DNA of 5,345 nt from Candidatus Heimdallarchaeota archaeon (GTDB lineage Archaea > Asgardarchaeota > Heimdallarchaeia > Heimdallarchaeales > Kariarchaeaceae). Shown piece by piece: positions 1 to 5,345 of the stretch. The notes under the pieces were generated by a model. That model did no database searches. It was not told the DNA's origin and worked only from the letters and a program-made list of their open reading frames with translations. The first letter of the stretch is position 1, and each line of letters opens with the position of its first letter. Location of the stretch: positions 1 through 5,345 of the forward strand of contig JAAFKL010000330.1 in assembly GCA_021399405.1 (NCBI GenBank), in the 5' to 3' direction. Made by a program: the position numbers and the translations under genes.

Positions 1-809
1 GAGGGGTTGCATATGTTGATACCGAGGGTGCATTTGTGCTTGATAGATTCAAATACCTGGCAAGGTACTGGGGTGCGGATATGGAGAAGATGAAGGACAA
101 ATTCCTCTATGCAAGGGCAGACTCGATGGATGAAGTTGAGCTAGCCCTAGATGAGATAATCAAGGTTGCGAAAGAGAAAGATATTGGCATCGTGGTGGTG
201 GATTCTATCATGGATGCATTGAAAAGTCAGTATCCAGTTGGAGGTCAGGAATTAGCGAATCTTCAACCTAGACAAAAACATCTCAAACGAGTTCTGGATA
301 AATTAAAGAGTCTGGCAAATCTCTTCAATCTGGTAGTATTCTATACAAATCATGTCAGATCCAATATTGGTGGTCCCATGGGCACACCTGATTTAGGAGC
401 CCAAGGTGGAGCCGTTCTTGGACATGCATCTGACATCCGAATGAGATTGGAGAAAGCAACCAAAGCTGAACGGAAAGACTTTGGTTTCGATGACAAACCT
501 GCTGGAAGAGTTGGGTTAAAAGTTGGACGAGCGACCATTGTAGATTGTGGGTTTCTACCTGAGGGAAGAGGATGGTATCTCATAGGCCCCATGGGTGTGG
601 CAGATCCCAATAGCTACAACCAAATATTCAAACAGTCTACAGAGTACAAAGAAAACGGCTACATCTCGATGGATAGTCAGGGTATACCCTTGGATCATCT
701 GGATCCCAATGCAAAGAGACCTAAAACATATATTTCTGAAAATCAAGAAATGATTTATGGAAAGAAGAAGGAAGATAAGAAAGTTACAGCTAAAACCAAG
801 AATAAATAA
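1..809 (+). CDS. radA: RadA/Rad51-family recombinase, C-terminal part (5' end outside window)
   Basis: This is the ATPase core and C-terminus of a RecA-superfamily strand-exchange protein, which forms filaments on single-stranded DNA in homologous recombination. The frame is already open at base 3 and reads GVAYVDTEGAF before the first GTG at 36, so the true start and the Walker A motif lie outside the window. About 268 residues are visible. Walker B is IGIVVVDS (visible residues about 61-68), followed by an L1-like region with QPRQKHL, then YTNHV (canonically TNQV), an L2-like glycine-rich stretch with GGAVLGHAS, and DCGFLPEG, matching the family's D-S-P-x-LPE segment. Unusual points are about 18 extra residues between the LGHAS and LPEG blocks, GGQEL where Rad51/RadA usually has GRGEL in L1, and about 65 residues beyond the normal end, finishing in a lysine-rich tail. 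The RecA fold is certain; it could be a divergent RadA paralogue rather than the housekeeping copy. Confidence 0.88.
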   Translation, partial: GVAYVDTEGAFVLDRFKYLARYWGADMEKMKDKFLYARADSMDEVELALDEIIKVAKEKDIGIVVVDSIMDALKSQYPVGGQELANLQPRQKHLKRVLDKLKSLANLFNLVVFYTNHVRSNIGGPMGTPDLGAQGGAVLGHASDIRMRLEKATKAERKDFGFDDKPAGRVGLKVGRATIVDCGFLPEGRGWYLIGPMGVADPNSYNQIFKQSTEYKENGYISMDSQGIPLDHLDPNAKRPKTYISENQEMIYGKKKEDKKVTAKTKNK

Positions 810-831: not shown

Positions 832-1428
832 TTAATTATTACCAGTAATAAATTCGACTATACGGAGAGCAAGTTCCCACCCAGATTTATCCTCTAGTAA
901 CTCACCCACAAATTCGTATAAATCTAGAGAATTATCTAACGCTGCCAATTCCTTAGCAAATTGTTCCTTTATCTTGTAACTTATTTCCAAAAATAGTTCT
1001 TGATGAGTAATAGTCATGCCATCACCATTATTTTTCACTGTAAATGCCTTGTGTAGATTATTAATTGAGGATGGTAAATCTCCAAGTTTGAGATAACACC
1101 TGGCTAACCCAATAAAGGATTCTTTTATATCTGTAGTCAGAGTGTATCTTTCTGGTAAAACATTGAGAACATAAATCTCAATTGCCCTCTCATATCTTCC
1201 CTGATTGTAATAGAAATTGCCCATAGTCAAGTTTTTAGGACCAGCATAACTAACTGAGTCACTTACTGCCTCCACCAATCCAATGACTGGATTCTTTATG
1301 AATGGAATATTAGCCTTGTTCTTATCCGGACTATACATCTCGTACATTTCAAGAGATGACTGAATATCATCGTTGTTAAAGGTGTCAAAAACAGGATCAT
1401 TACAATTGGAATCGCCCGCACAATTCAT
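832..1428 (-). CDS. small TPR-like repeat protein
   Basis: The product has 198 residues with two segments resembling tetratricopeptide repeats. The first spans about residues 65-92 (NFYYNQGRYERAIEIY) and the second about 103-130 (GLARCYLKLGDLPSSI followed by NNLHKAF). Such helix pairs form scaffolds for protein-protein contacts; no catalytic motif is visible. The N-terminus has a C-x5-C pair (residues 3 and 9). No signal peptide or membrane helix is seen, so it is probably cytoplasmic. The C-terminal third looks helical. The start is firm: a TAG stop directly precedes the ATG in frame, and a TATA-like box lies about 28 nt upstream, consistent with a leaderless mRNA. It converges on the recombinase gene and is separated by 130 bp from the 206-residue gene upstream. 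Its partner and role are unknown; the TPR assignment rests on pattern only. Confidence 0.72.
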   Translation of the reverse strand: MNCAGDSNCNDPVFDTFNNDDIQSSLEMYEMYSPDKNKANIPFIKNPVIGLVEAVSDSVSYAGPKNLTMGNFYYNQGRYERAIEIYVLNVLPERYTLTTDIKESFIGLARCYLKLGDLPSSINNLHKAFTVKNNGDGMTITHQELFLEISYKIKEQFAKELAALDNSLDLYEFVGELLEDKSGWELALRIVEFITGNN

Positions 1429-1558: not shown

Positions 1559-2179
1559 CTAGTATCGACGGATTAGATAGACAGTTAAATCATTAGAATT
1601 AATATGTTCAATGATCTTAAACACTTTCTTTTCAAATTTTAAACAATATTCATCAAGATATGTTAAGTTAAGCCATTTGTATTCAAACCCAGCGCTTGCG
1701 CCATATGAGCTAGATTGTAGTTGCAAATAATTCTCAAGTATCATATCTATATCGTCATCATATTCTTTTTTCCCTTTATCTTCAATGAACTTACGATAAA
1801 CTTGGTCAATATTTACCCAAGGTATTTTCACAGTGTATGAACCAGAATAATATAGGTCTTTGGCAATTTGTTCCTCGGTAACATGTACCTCAAAAGACAA
1901 TTGATATAGATCAATAAGTTTAGTTATTAGTTGATCAATCGATGAATTAATTGTATTCTCTACAACGGTAAGCTGATTTTGATCTGATACTTTCCTGGCG
2001 AATTGTAATAATTCTTGTGATAATTTGGATTTTTCATTTGGTCTGTTGAAATGATTTTCTAGTAATTCATGATGCAAAAATTCAAGAAAATTATGTAAAT
2101 CCGCAGAATTATGGCTTCTTAAAGGGAGAAAATGTTGAATCGTATTATCAGATCTCAATATTAATTTTTCCAAGACCAC
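1559..2179 (-). CDS. unrecognised 206-residue protein
   Basis: I do not recognise this protein. It is 206 residues, mostly predicted helical from its pattern of leucine, isoleucine and charged residues, with no transmembrane segment, signal peptide, nucleotide-binding loop or metal-binding cluster. There is an acidic patch around residues 139-145 (EYDDDID) and an aromatic-rich stretch near 167-178 (YKWLNLTYLDEY). The start is a GTG: an in-frame TAA lies seven codons upstream with no ATG between, and an AT-rich box is centred about 27 nt upstream. A TTG two codons in is an alternative start. It lies downstream of the helicase on the same strand, after a 114-bp gap containing T-tracts, so it is probably transcribed separately. 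It shows no helicase motifs and is not a helicase fragment. That it is a real gene is supported by length, lack of a competing frame and the box upstream. Confidence 0.65.
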   Translation of the reverse strand: MVLEKLILRSDNTIQHFLPLRSHNSADLHNFLEFLHHELLENHFNRPNEKSKLSQELLQFARKVSDQNQLTVVENTINSSIDQLITKLIDLYQLSFEVHVTEEQIAKDLYYSGSYTVKIPWVNIDQVYRKFIEDKGKKEYDDDIDMILENYLQLQSSSYGASAGFEYKWLNLTYLDEYCLKFEKKVFKIIEHINSNDLTVYLIRRY

Positions 2180-2293: not shown

Positions 2294-4087
2294 TCAAACA
2301 TATTTGGTAGTAGTGTATTCAAACTCATCTTCATATGATGCTATTATTAACCTATTTTTCGCCCTTGTAACAGCAACGTACCATATTCTTCTCTCCTCAT
2401 CTTCATCCTCCTCACCACGTTTCTCATAATGGGTGGCCCGATTTATCACAATAACAAGATCTGCCTCTTTTCCTTTACTTTTGTGTATAGTCATTACCTT
2501 GACCTGATCCAACGAATTGAGTAGCTGATCCTTATTCCAACCCTTCTCAATTCCTTTCTCAATACTTATCTTTGAGGCCTTGCTAATCTTGCGTGTCAGG
2601 AGTTCGAGGATTTCCGGACCGACGAGATCGATCAAAGAAAGGAGTATTTTCTTATCAATATTAATTTCATTTTCTTCGTCCAATAATTGTTGTAATTTAT
2701 GATATTCATCATAAAGAAACAATGATTTTCTCTTACCAATATTTATCACATTGCTGAAATTCTGTGGTGTCTCGGCTAACTTTAGTAAAAGGCGGATATC
2801 ATCATTTGAGAAAACATCAGCTGATTCCGGATCGACATTAACCATTTTGTAGATCGCATCATAATACTGTTCAATTTCCTTTCTCTCCTGAGTATTGGTC
2901 GAATCCTTAGGATAAATACAGTTCACGATTCCAGCTTTTCTCAATTTTTTACTGATAATATCTATCATGGAATTGGTCCTGCACAGAACAAATACCGATT
3001 CATCCGGGTCTATTTCAATCTCGGATAACTCGATTTCCTCCACCGAGCCCTCTCTATCTATGGATACATGGGATTGATATGAGGAAAGATATGTGTTCGA
3101 GGTAATCATTTGCTGCGCCAGCTCGATTATTTTCGGAGGAAGCCGATACGATACATCTAAGATGATTTCAGGTTCGGTTGCTTCATAATTCTGCAAGAAC
3201 TGAGGTGATGAATTCTGAAAGCCGTAGATTGCCTGATTGGGATCTCCTGCAATGATTGTGATCTTGGTATTTTCTGCCCATACTTTGAATACCTCAAATT
3301 GCAATGGTGAGAAATCCTGGAATTCGTCCATGATGAGAATGGTACATTGTGGATAGAGCCTGTTTTTGAAGCAGTGTAGTAGTAAATCATTGAACTCAAA
3401 GATATAATTCTGCTGCTTATGTAGGGTCCATTGCTGATGAAACAGAAAACTTACCTGAATTGCTAATTTAGATAATTCTTCATTGATATCATCAAATTCA
3501 TCCTCGTCATCATATTCATCATCATCCTCAAAAGATAATCGGGACCAGTATTCATTCAAGTACTCAAAGGATTGTTTGATATCATCATCTGGAAATTTGA
3601 TCTGCAAATCCTGATGAAGCTTGAAGAAAATACCAGGATGTAATTCATTCAGGGATTCAAGATTTCTCAGATCATATACTGTGGAATTATCATAGGATAC
3701 AAATTTGAGAAAAGTAAAACGGTGTTGATAATTTGTCTTAAATTCTGTAAAGAAGTCCTCCCTTGTCTTTAGATTGTTTTTCGTCTTGAATTTATTACCT
3801 AGATGTTGTCTTACTAAGGTGTAAGACAGAGAATGCATGGTTTTGATAGATTTTAGGGTTTGATCAGTTAATTGTGGTAATAGTTTCACAATTCTTTCCT
3901 GCACCTCCCCAATCGCTGCTTTGGTATGTGAGCAGTAAATTATATCTTTCATTTCAATACCATCTGAGACATAGTTTTTTACTATTTGTAGAAGGGTGTA
4001 AGTTTTACCAGTACCTGGGAGTCCAATAATTTTATACGATTTTCTTGCATCATGTTGTAGCTCATATGGACTGGCAAGAGTTAACAT
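2294..4087 (-). CDS. UvrD/Rep-like superfamily 1 DNA helicase, compact
   Basis: This 597-residue protein is an ATP-driven DNA translocase/helicase of the UvrD/Rep/PcrA group. Motifs in order are Walker A GLPGTGKT (22-29, lysine 28), motif Ia YCSHTKAA (51-58), TMHSLSYT (83-90), Walker B MDEFQD (253-258), motif III AGDPNQAIYGF (280-290), motif IV DVSYR (311-315), motif V VMTIHKSKGKEAD (531-543) and motif VI RRIWYVAVTRAKN (566-578). All key residues are present, so it should be active. It is shorter than UvrD (about 720 residues): the part between motifs IV and V is reduced, which suggests a small 2B domain. An acidic run (DDDEYDDEDEFDD, 188-200) lies in the 1B region. No fused nuclease domain is seen. 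The ATG at 4087 has a TATA-like box about 25 nt upstream and no Shine-Dalgarno site. It could serve repair, replication of an element, or defence, as the UvrD-like GajB of Gabija does; the sequence does not decide. Confidence 0.95.
   Translation of the reverse strand: MLTLASPYELQHDARKSYKIIGLPGTGKTYTLLQIVKNYVSDGIEMKDIIYCSHTKAAIGEVQERIVKLLPQLTDQTLKSIKTMHSLSYTLVRQHLGNKFKTKNNLKTREDFFTEFKTNYQHRFTFLKFVSYDNSTVYDLRNLESLNELHPGIFFKLHQDLQIKFPDDDIKQSFEYLNEYWSRLSFEDDDEYDDEDEFDDINEELSKLAIQVSFLFHQQWTLHKQQNYIFEFNDLLLHCFKNRLYPQCTILIMDEFQDFSPLQFEVFKVWAENTKITIIAGDPNQAIYGFQNSSPQFLQNYEATEPEIILDVSYRLPPKIIELAQQMITSNTYLSSYQSHVSIDREGSVEEIELSEIEIDPDESVFVLCRTNSMIDIISKKLRKAGIVNCIYPKDSTNTQERKEIEQYYDAIYKMVNVDPESADVFSNDDIRLLLKLAETPQNFSNVINIGKRKSLFLYDEYHKLQQLLDEENEINIDKKILLSLIDLVGPEILELLTRKISKASKISIEKGIEKGWNKDQLLNSLDQVKVMTIHKSKGKEADLVIVINRATHYEKRGEEDEDEERRIWYVAVTRAKNRLIIASYEDEFEYTTTKYV
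3807..3828. repeat. isolated inverted repeat inside the helicase gene
   Basis: TGTCTTAC and GTAAGACA form a perfect 8-bp stem with a 6-nt loop. It is the only stem of this length with a short loop that I found outside the insertion sequence, and may be chance. Confidence 0.5.
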
Positions 4088-4107
4088 AGTAAATATTAAT
4101 CGTGAAA

Positions 4108-4117
4108 TTTATTTAAG
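4108..4117 (-). promoter_or_regulatory. TATA box for the helicase gene
   Basis: The minus strand reads CTTAAATAAA, centred about 25 nt upstream of the helicase ATG at 4087. Transcription would begin at about the start codon, giving a leaderless mRNA. The left end of the insertion sequence lies roughly 65 bp farther upstream, so this core promoter is intact, though regulatory sequence above it may have been replaced. Confidence 0.6.
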
Positions 4118-4189
4118 TAAGATAGAAGTTGTACTTAGAAATTATGTTGAAGTTAGATTGATTTTCATCGATCTGCTCTAACCCTCACA

Positions 4190-4228
4190 TTGGACCCACT
4201 TCCTGACCATCCACGCGCCCACTTTACA
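4190..4228 (+). repeat. left terminal inverted repeat of the insertion sequence
   Basis: Aligned with the reverse complement of 5291-5330, about 28 of 39 positions match with one 1-nt gap. The best-kept blocks are TGACCA (4204-4209) and CGCCCA (4216-4221). The heptamer CCCACTT occurs twice, at 4195-4201 and 4218-4224, 23 bp apart, suggesting two transposase-binding sites on the same face of the helix. The transposase stop codon (4224-4226) overlaps the repeat. Confidence 0.7.
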
Positions 4229-5255
4229 CCCACGAATACTTAGGGGTTGGATACAACCCCTTACGGGCACTATTGTAGTACCGTATCCAGCGAGTAACGT
4301 GCATTTTTAAAGCACGAACACTCGAAATAATGATCGATACGATAGCTTCAGCCTTCACAAGGCTGAATTTCGATTCAATCAAACTCAAATGGGGACTCCA
4401 AGCGGGTAACCAAAGAACTTTAATTTTCAATCGTTTCAAGCTTTTCTGAAAGATTTTGGCACGATTCCCCTGATAATTATCCATGATCATTGTGATTTTC
4501 TTACTTTGAGGAAGCATCCGATAGATGCTTCTGAAAGCATTTCTGATGCTTTCACCCTTCAGATCTTTGGTCCAAGTGTGGTACATGACGTCTCCCTTGA
4601 CATCGTACACACCTAACATGATGGCCTTGCCATTATGCCATTGATAGGAGGGTATCGTAGGAATTGAGGTCGTCCACTGACGACCTTTTACGCCAACATC
4701 ACTTAAAAATATCTTCTGATCCAGGACAAGGATCAGATGATCCTTGTCTTTATCCTGGTAAGCTTGCATGACCTTGGCTTTGCGTTCTGCGTAATTTGGA
4801 TGGACCGTGTACGGTCTGAACTTGGTTCTTCGATATCGATAATCTGCTTGTTTTATCAACCTACGTACCCGTTCGTGACCGAACGGACACCCTTCTTGTC
4901 TCAGAAAATACCACAACCTTTTGACACTCCAGGTTGAATATGGCTGCTTCAGAGTTCGAGGTGGTGTATTCACCACCTCCAACACTCGTTCTTTCCAATG
5001 AATTACTCCTGGAGCCTCAGAAGGGGTATTTGATTGCTGGTTCAAACCAGCAAAACCGAAACGTTTCCAATTTCTAATCGCCTTCCAGACTGTATCTGGA
5101 TGGCAATGCAACTGCATTGCGATCTGCTTGGGTTTGAAACCTAAGTCGCGAAGTAAAATTATTTTGCTGCGCAATCTGAATTTGTCAAATCGACAAAGTT
5201 CTTCTAGTTGTGAAATTTCAATATCTGAGAGAGATTTGATTTCTGATTTGATCAT
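4224..5255 (-). CDS. IS630-family transposase (DD34E)
   Basis: This 343-residue protein cuts and joins the ends of its own element through an RNase H-like DDE active site. The N-terminal helix-turn-helix is at about residues 25-65 (RLRSKIILLRDLGFKPKQIA and onward), and a second, winged-helix-like segment lies at about 106-140. The catalytic residues appear to be D179 (LVLDQKIF), D259 (TMIMDNYQGN) and E294 (PHLSLIESKF), with 34 residues between the second D and the E, as in the IS630/Tc1-mariner superfamily. The motif PAWSPHLSLIE corresponds to the usual PxxSPxLNPIE; the first D is followed by Q instead of the common E, and DNYQGN replaces the usual DNxxxH. The frame has no stops or shifts and is near full family length, so it is probably active. 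The ATG at 5255 has a weak AAGGT upstream and an AT-rich box at 5276-5283. The coding sequence is packed with short hairpins (see separate entries). Confidence 0.95.
   Translation of the reverse strand: MIKSEIKSLSDIEISQLEELCRFDKFRLRSKIILLRDLGFKPKQIAMQLHCHPDTVWKAIRNWKRFGFAGLNQQSNTPSEAPGVIHWKERVLEVVNTPPRTLKQPYSTWSVKRLWYFLRQEGCPFGHERVRRLIKQADYRYRRTKFRPYTVHPNYAERKAKVMQAYQDKDKDHLILVLDQKIFLSDVGVKGRQWTTSIPTIPSYQWHNGKAIMLGVYDVKGDVMYHTWTKDLKGESIRNAFRSIYRMLPQSKKITMIMDNYQGNRAKIFQKSLKRLKIKVLWLPAWSPHLSLIESKFSLVKAEAIVSIIISSVRALKMHVTRWIRYYNSARKGLYPTPKYSWV
4242..4261. repeat. transposase-gene hairpin, 8-bp stem
   Basis: AGGGGTTG and CAACCCCT pair perfectly around the loop GATA. It lies at the 3' end of the transposase coding sequence, next to the left inverted repeat. 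Confidence 0.75.
4347..4367. repeat. transposase-gene hairpin, 9-bp stem
   Basis: TTCAGCCTT and AAGGCTGAA pair perfectly around the loop CAC. It lies over the codons following the catalytic glutamate. Confidence 0.8.
4511..4554. repeat. two adjoining transposase-gene hairpins, 8- and 9-bp stems
   Basis: GAAGCATC and GATGCTTC pair around CGATA (4511-4531), and immediately next TGAAAGCAT and ATGCTTTCA pair around TTCTG (4532-4554). Both stems are perfect. The arms share a GCAT core, so alternative pairings between the two hairpins are possible. Confidence 0.8.
4576..4612. repeat. longer bulged hairpin in the transposase gene
   Basis: GACGTC (4587-4592) pairs with GACATC (4599-4604) around TCCCTT, with one mismatch that is a G-U pair in the mRNA. 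GTAC outside it pairs with GTAC after a 2-nt bulge, and GTGT then pairs with ACAC after a 1-nt bulge, for 14 pairs in all. Confidence 0.55.
4667..4686. repeat. transposase-gene hairpin, 8-bp stem
   Basis: AGGTCGTC and GACGACCT pair perfectly around the loop CACT, shortly downstream of the first catalytic aspartate in the coding direction. Confidence 0.75.
4721..4758. repeat. transposase-gene hairpin, 11-bp stem with outer extension
   Basis: GACAAGGATCA (4725-4735) and TGATCCTTGTC (4738-4748) form a perfect 11-bp stem, most simply 10 bp with the loop AGAT. CCAG and CTGG extend it by four pairs beyond a 6-nt one-sided bulge. It is the longest perfect stem found in the window. Confidence 0.85.
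4869..4886. repeat. transposase-gene hairpin, 7-bp stem
   Basis: CCGTTCG and CGAACGG pair perfectly around the loop TGAC. The stem is GC-rich and should be stable despite being short. Confidence 0.6.
4958..4979. repeat. transposase-gene hairpin, 9-bp stem
   Basis: GAGGTGGTG and CACCACCTC pair perfectly around the loop TATT. It lies in the linker between the two DNA-binding segments of the transposase. Confidence 0.8.
5034..5053. repeat. transposase-gene hairpin, 9-bp stem
   Basis: TTGCTGGTT and AACCAGCAA pair perfectly around CA, or as 8 bp around TCAA. It follows the N-terminal helix-turn-helix coding region. Confidence 0.8.
5084..5197. repeat. run of four or five small hairpins in the transposase gene
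   Basis: In order these are TCCAGA/TCTGGA around CTGTA (5084-5100), GCAATGC/GCATTGC around AACT (5103-5120), CTTGGGTT/AACCTAAG around TGA with one mismatched pair (5127-5145), an AT-rich stem at 5148-5172 built from GCG-AG-AAAA and TTTT-CT-CGC with one mismatch and one G-T pair, and TTTGTC/GACAAA around AAATC (5181-5197). They follow one another almost without gaps across the helix-turn-helix codons. Each one is weak alone; the run is notable. Confidence 0.55.
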
Positions 5256-5275
5256 CTAGACCTTGAATCTCTCGC

Positions 5276-5283
5276 ATTTTAAG
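5276..5283 (-). promoter_or_regulatory. possible TATA box for the transposase gene
   Basis: The minus strand reads CTTAAAAT, centred about 25 nt upstream of the ATG at 5255. It lies just inside the right inverted repeat, so the element would carry its own promoter and transposase binding could repress it. An AAGGT at 5260-5264 is a weak possible ribosome site. Confidence 0.4.
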
Positions 5284-5290
5284 AATCTTT

Positions 5291-5330
5291 TGAAAAATGG
5301 GCGATTCGGTGGTCAAAAAGTTGGTTCAGA
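5291..5330 (-). repeat. right terminal inverted repeat of the insertion sequence
   Basis: This is the partner of 4190-4228. On the plus strand the conserved blocks read TGGGCG (5298-5303) and TGGTCA (5310-5315). Similarity becomes poor beyond about 5330, so the true end may be near the TA at 5334-5335. Confidence 0.7.
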
Positions 5331-5345
5331 AACTAGGTCACCGCA

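Follow-up and report, generated by a model that had tools for sequence, protein, structure and literature searches.

The window, that is, the whole 5,345-nt stretch of DNA analysed here, contains five main ORFs according to the ORF listing and family-model matches (Table 1). The product of one of them scored 135 bits against NF033545 (cut-off 100), which passes the IS630 family threshold, and also matched the DDE_3 and HTH_23 domains. Its catalytic triad consists of D179, D259 and E294; D179 is invariant, and D259 and E294 are present in at least 90% of 14 aligned sequences. The last two members are separated by 34 residues. IS630 belongs to the Tc1/mariner superfamily, and a D/D/E triad with this spacing is typical of it. 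The segments 4191-4228 and 5291-5328 are probable inverted ends of the element, the former being identical to the reverse complement of the latter at 28 of 38 positions (counted by eye in the alignment). The alignment scored 36 against a maximum of 30 in 300 shuffles, with one outer end lying beyond the window. By its family match and triad, the gene belongs with the IS630-family transposases and looks intact, the probable inverted ends being a further likeness, and the open frame of the original prediction was borne out. The closest relative of the protein (P0001, 91% identical) is assigned to Kariarchaeaceae, an Asgard (Promethearchaeati) family.

The contig stops 17 bases past the matched part of the inverted repeat, and the outermost bases at the 5291-5328 end probably lie past the contig end. 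The contig end thus probably falls inside the element, as could happen if the element exists in several copies and interrupted assembly there. Among the other genes, the RadA/Rad51-like protein scored 98 bits, under the curated RadA cut-off of 259, its score being lowered because the gene is cut at the 5' end; it also matches the UvsX-like recombinase family PHROG 97. The UvrD-like helicase matches a phage DNA-helicase family (PHROG 1967, 1.4e-80). Its highest listed identity is 84%, followed by 83% and 80% with proteins from Heimdallarchaeota MAGs, and it is 66% with a Kariarchaeaceae protein. Judging by the relatives of the helicase and the transposase, the host is an Asgard archaeon.

Table 1. 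Genes, element ends and hairpins in the window.
Feature	Position	Strand	Basis or description
RadA/Rad51-like gene, 5'-cut	3-809	+	family-model match
TPR-like gene	832-1428	-	matches under Pfam cut-offs
ORF, kind unknown	1559-2179	-	ORF listing
UvrD-like helicase gene	2294-4087	-	family-model match
Probable inverted repeat of element, end beside transposase gene 3' end	4191-4228	+	alignment
IS630-family transposase CDS, 343 aa, intact, DD(34)E	4224-5255	-	ORF, NF033545, DDE_3, HTH_23
Perfect hairpin	4242-4261	.	stem 8, loop 4
Perfect hairpin	4347-4367	.	stem 9, loop 3, inside FSLVKAE
Perfect hairpin	4511-4531	.	stem 8, loop 5
Perfect hairpin	4532-4554	.	stem 9, loop 5
Perfect hairpin	4667-4686	.	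stem 8, loop 4; disallowed by P0001 protein
Competing overlapping hairpin, arm common to 4725-4748	4715-4737	.	stem 8, loop 7
Perfect hairpin	4725-4748	.	stem 11, loop 2
Perfect hairpin	4958-4979	.	stem 9, loop 4
Perfect hairpin	5034-5053	.	stem 9, loop 2; one arm codes N-Q-Q
Ninth perfect hairpin	5103-5120	.	stem 8, loop 2
Probable inverted repeat of element, other end	5291-5328	-	alignment

Within its 1032 bases, the transposase gene has nine perfect stems, which measure 8-11 bp and enclose loops of 2-5 nt. Eight of them had been pointed out in the original prediction and are all present where it placed them; the ninth had been overlooked. The adjoining hairpins at 4511-4531 and 4532-4554 have arms alike, and those at 4958-4979 and 5103-5120 each continue for three pairs past one mismatch (4954-4983 and 5099-5124). 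As predicted, the stems fall in no single codon phase: five are in phase 2, three in phase 1 and one in phase 3, with phase defined as in the Nematomorpha paper and derived by hand, in agreement with the centre enumeration after merging of loop variants. Widening the loop to at most 10 nt added one further stem (4715-4737), since the raw count of four for loops of 6-10 includes segments interior to stems with shorter loops, and an excess at loops of 11-80 was looked for in the transposase gene and was absent. The non-coding ends of the element within the window have zero stems of at least 8 bp. In the rest of the window, the one near equivalent mentioned before (3807-3828, loop of 6) is there, and another stem at 2696-2715 (8 bp, loop of 4) had been missed. 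A known structured RNA family was ruled out by the Rfam search, which gave 0 matches at gathering score across the window.

The number of stems far exceeds expectation. Codon-preserving shuffles gave a mean of 0.29 and a maximum of 5 in 3000 replicates, and codon shuffles with dinucleotide counts nearly fixed, which kept 46% of the codons in place, gave a mean of 0.33 and a maximum of 3 in 1000. Both nulls show that the earlier expectation of 0.06 stems, made with uniform base frequencies, was too low; the shuffle check proposed with it nevertheless left an excess of about 30-fold. The proposed comparison with other genes also held, as the radA-like, TPR, unknown and uvrD genes contain 0, 0, 0 and 1 stems of at least 8 bp, near expectation. 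A further 136 control ORFs, mechanically defined with at least 100 codons, came from E. coli K-12, from one plasmid each of Halorussus and Rhodococcus (in the latter near its IS630 matches, with some overlap of loci) and from the contig L001 described below. Together they contain 15 stems, where 100 shuffles of each ORF predict about 15, with at most two per ORF (by source, 0 against 2.7 in E. coli and 11 against 7.9 in Halorussus). The IS1, IS5 and IS30 genes in the E. coli stretch and, unlike the gene studied here, the IS630 copies of the Rhodococcus plasmid are without a comparable hairpin tiling. The excess of stems is real and, within the window, limited to the transposase gene.

Chance, codon usage or an assembly artefact as the sole cause is refuted by these counts unless the contig sequence is wrong, and we regard it as scarcely credible. 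The gene is known from one contig and one copy, many genomes have more short palindromes than expected (PMC4060949), and third codon positions are richer in G+C in the arms (0.55) than elsewhere (0.43). However, neither kind of shuffle reached nine stems, each of the 140 remaining ORFs has two stems at most, and the codons in the arms are usual for the gene (mean log p of -1.18, against -1.15 with sd 0.10 for random partitions), which rules out odd codon usage in the arms as the cause. The conserved 343-aa frame has been kept, so that an assembly artefact is hardly likely.

Shorter and imperfect stems are fewer than the "about ten more" once suggested. Besides the nine, there are five perfect stems of 6-7 bp (four of 6 bp and one of 7 bp) against about 1.75 expected. 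There are also four one-mismatch stems, where 0.4 are expected and none of 500 shuffles exceeds 3; two of the four only lengthen perfect stems already counted. We further enumerated permitted centres, meaning points where some set of synonymous codons for the same protein would form an 8-bp stem with a loop of 2-5. Among 35 distinct permitted centres, nine are realised at 8-11 bp, two at 6-7 bp and 24 at no more than 5 bp, where shuffles predict 0.24 for at least 8 bp and 0.5 for 6-7 bp. When loop variants are counted apart, 12 of 48 centres are realised in the transposase gene versus 1 of 81 in the four neighbour genes. Because the 6-7 bp and one-mismatch stems are in excess too, the all-or-none form is near but not strict. 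The gap in stem lengths would be the outcome of conversion, whereas graded selection for folding should fill the middle as well.

The pairing is superimposed on the protein. Among 14 aligned proteins, there is no indel specific to the one encoded in the window, so the stems are not insertions; an inserted palindromic element of the Rickettsia type is ruled out by the same alignment, in which there are no extra residues. Several stems lie within peptides kept by most of the family (FSLVKAE, EVVNTPPR and DxDHLxLV), so that pairing there rests on codon choice; FSLVKAE is present in 11 of the 12 homologs aligned at this site, and the remaining one has FSIIKAE. Other stems use residues that the alignment shows just in this transposase and its nearest relative. 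An example is the stem at 5034-5053, which falls in a variable stretch of the protein and has N-Q-Q encoded by one arm. The P0001 protein permits a stem of at least 8 bp at eight of the nine sites and excludes the one at 4667-4686, which means that at least this stem differs between the two elements.

Mean protein identity to homologs is 0.72 at realised centres and 0.71 at unrealised ones. The residues permitting a stem are retained in 59 of 109 cases at realised centres and 139 of 310 at unrealised ones, a small difference obtained with 13 of 17 homologs (P0014-P0017 fall outside the alignment); these counts appear neither to support conserved stems nor to exclude them. The potential of the protein to permit stems, compared with residue shuffles, is highest in the transposase of the window (z 4.0). 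All but one of 15 homologs also have a positive value, but values for 12 control proteins of E. coli spread from -2.7 to 2.9, and little weight is placed on this measure. The proportion of stems reaching the limit allowed by the protein is uninformative, since shuffled stems (470 of 799) are alike in this respect to the real ones (6 of 9).

One explanation of the stems is selection for a locally folded transposase mRNA, by which slowed ribosomes, hidden internal initiation or protection from decay would keep transposition low. Folding is indeed predicted to be strong, with z-scores of -9.3 for the whole gene and -7.8 in 60-nt windows, while the four neighbour genes range from -1.8 to 0.7 for the whole gene (100 shuffles, 20 for uvrD). 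Eight of the stems have a mean pair probability of 0.71-1.0 in the full-length predicted fold, the mild excess of imperfect and 6-7 bp stems suits such selection, and another transposase, that of ISPpu9, is described in excerpts of PMC8450116 as regulated by mRNA structure. The complement, however, is nearly as extreme (-8.5 for the whole gene and -6.2 in 60-nt windows), so selection on mRNA is not specifically supported; the folding check proposed originally gave an excess on both strands. Allowing G.U pairs adds four stems (13 in total against a null of 2.8), and allowing A.C pairs, which equal G.U on the other strand, adds six (15 against 2.2). G.U thus adds no more than A.C, and the pairing rule of RNA leaves no sign. 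The summed stem energies of the two strands are -104.1 and -105.5 kcal/mol. As G.U and A.C counts, folding z-scores and energies are alike on both strands, the signal concerns the DNA duplex about as much as the message. RNA folding also opens each of the three 2-nt loops by one pair, the remaining one of the nine stems pairs at a probability of 0.10, mid-length stems are few at permitted centres, and residue retention differs little between realised and unrealised centres. We therefore consider selection on the mRNA possible but doubtful.

Midway through the gene (4715-4737, - strand), a stem resembling a terminator precedes a T-rich tail and has one arm common to the 11-bp stem. Some stems could be transcription terminators against read-through from outside. 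In the region 4090-5345, the scan gave three sites of this kind, where 50 shuffles averaged 0.9 (sd 1.0); they include 4715-4737, on the strand of the mRNA, and 4347-4367, on the opposite strand. A T-rich tail was seen at only these two of the hairpins described here, and the consensus used in the scan is of the bacterial type; this role is highly improbable as the cause of the stems.

Searches for relatives of the element yielded little. In genome contigs, the sole DNA relative is one partial relic (L001) in a Heimdallarchaeota MAG, a frameshifted copy spanning about the last third of the gene with 70% identity over 329 aligned bases. Viral contigs searched with the transposase, the family alignment and the P0001, P0005 and P0008 queries gave no relative, nor did the phage search or the DNA search of plasmids. 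The protein search of plasmids found just IS630-like matches from actinobacteria; each of the 69 lies below 60% identity, with the best 30 of the 69 at 20-24%. A profile protein search added two short fragments and nothing more.

At the four homologous stems, the relic keeps 6 of 9, 4 of 8, 5 of 9 and 0 of 8 Watson-Crick pairs (15 of 34 in all), and stems of at least 6 bp with loops of 2-6 were looked for in its coding part and none were found. One pair is altered on both sides and still pairs, as seen by reading the pairs. The proposed check of relatives for paired substitutions was made on one decayed partial relic, where pairing is absent. The hairpins are therefore no fixed trait of the family, though a dead copy is a poor witness. 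Identities of the two arms between the transposase gene and the relic are 7/8 and 6/9, 3/8 and 7/8, 7/9 and 7/9, and 2/8 and 4/8. The second stem, with seven of eight bases kept in one arm and three of eight in the other, has the pattern that one-way copying would give, and it is the only clearly lopsided pair of arms among the four. An 8-bp hairpin with a loop of 4 was also seen at 3393-3412 of L001, just past the gene remnant and near the relic IS end.

The relic also bears on selection at the DNA level, in which cruciforms or single-strand hairpins would serve transposition, replication or the avoidance of host defence. The symmetric Watson-Crick pairing and the distribution of stems over the whole gene agree with it. 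On the other hand, the stem sequences and loops differ, so that a shared recognition motif is not seen; the non-coding ends, where a transposase acts, are without stems, and pairing is absent from L001. We know of no single-stranded stage in IS630/Tc1 cut-and-paste elements, and the single-stranded stage suggested in the original prediction is not expected for an element of this type. Selection on the DNA is therefore rated unlikely.

Of the three causes proposed at the outset, template switching at quasi-palindromes fits best. It would explain most of the features shown here, which are the excess itself, its restriction to a single gene in the window, the short loops, the lack of any G.U or strand preference, and the nearly all-or-none form of the stems. 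We propose, with moderate confidence, that repeated local template switching, filtered by the protein, rewrote an ordinary Asgard IS630 transposase gene. During DNA synthesis, the nascent strand would fold back on a nearby near-palindrome, and one arm would be copied onto the other until complementarity is perfect, a process known as quasi-palindrome correction. Conversions tolerated by the protein alone would survive, so that stems would stand where both arms can be read, largely through synonymous codons. Both the copying event and the protein filter are deduced from the final pattern, and the switch event itself is hypothetical. More tentatively, gaps left by cut-and-paste transposition might be refilled by repair synthesis, and the element might thus be re-copied by switch-prone synthesis far oftener than its neighbours, giving a reason for its excess. 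The other IS genes in our comparison behave normally, so this scenario would require a particular factor of the host or an element of uncommon activity. Selection, too, would be compatible with stems confined to 8-11 bp and scattered over the length of the gene.

Template switching has been invoked for coding sequences before. Mitochondrial genes of Nematomorpha have many perfect inverted repeats inside conserved coding sequence, and template switching is one of several mechanisms proposed by the authors, who were led to the idea of active conversion by the lack of imperfect repeats and likewise reasoned that graded selection should also fill the middle stem lengths (PMC6649704). Coding palindromes are called exclusive to that phylum in PMC10380579. 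The archaeal gene resembles these cases in having perfect inverted repeats in conserved coding sequence far past codon-preserving chance, in their nearly all-or-none identity, and in the overlap and competition of some repeats. The arms of several stems do encode conserved residues (FSLVKAE, EVVNTPPR), but protein identity at realised centres hardly exceeds that at unrealised ones. The hairworm repeats, in contrast, are counted from 15 bp, reach 142 bp per arm and occur in several genes of animal mitochondria, whereas here the arms are 8-11 bp with loops of 2-5 in one gene. As the arms are under 15 bp, the gene is said to work like the Nematomorpha palindromes and is not filed as a member.

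Ladoukakis and Eyre-Walker, as cited in PMC4060949, reported that short inverted repeats are in excess in the coding sequences of prokaryotes, an excess ascribed to perfection of imperfect palindromes by template switching, as we propose here; both template switching and selection on mRNA folding are reported in the citing paper as causes offered for the general excess. That excess is small, spread over many genomes and weaker in archaea according to the same source, in contrast to about 30-fold in one gene with neighbours at expectation. In yeast genes, template switching makes the arms of short inverted repeats identical and short spacers are favoured (PMC8604942, in part), similar to the short spacers and matched arms within a coding gene found here. 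The yeast events were inferred from phylogeny in about 1% of the analysed genes, unlike the many stems of a single gene known from its final sequence alone. Template switching is able both to create and to repair hairpins, according to the consulted part of PMC8794818. No recognised equivalent in archaea or IS genes was found among the literature matches listed, which were seen in part.

The case resembles the conflict between palindromes and protein in hairworms, but in a prokaryotic mobile element and on a scale short enough for single events. If sister copies of the element differ in their stems, template-switch events could be counted directly, and the mutational process could be told from selection on mRNA folding. 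A broader and rather speculative reading, which we hold to be unlikely, is that coding palindromes with fast turnover occur throughout a clade of Asgard IS630 elements, since gap repair prone to switching would copy the element anew in every cycle of transposition. If this were true, the transposase gene would preserve a lasting archive of template switching in a lineage of archaea near the eukaryotes.
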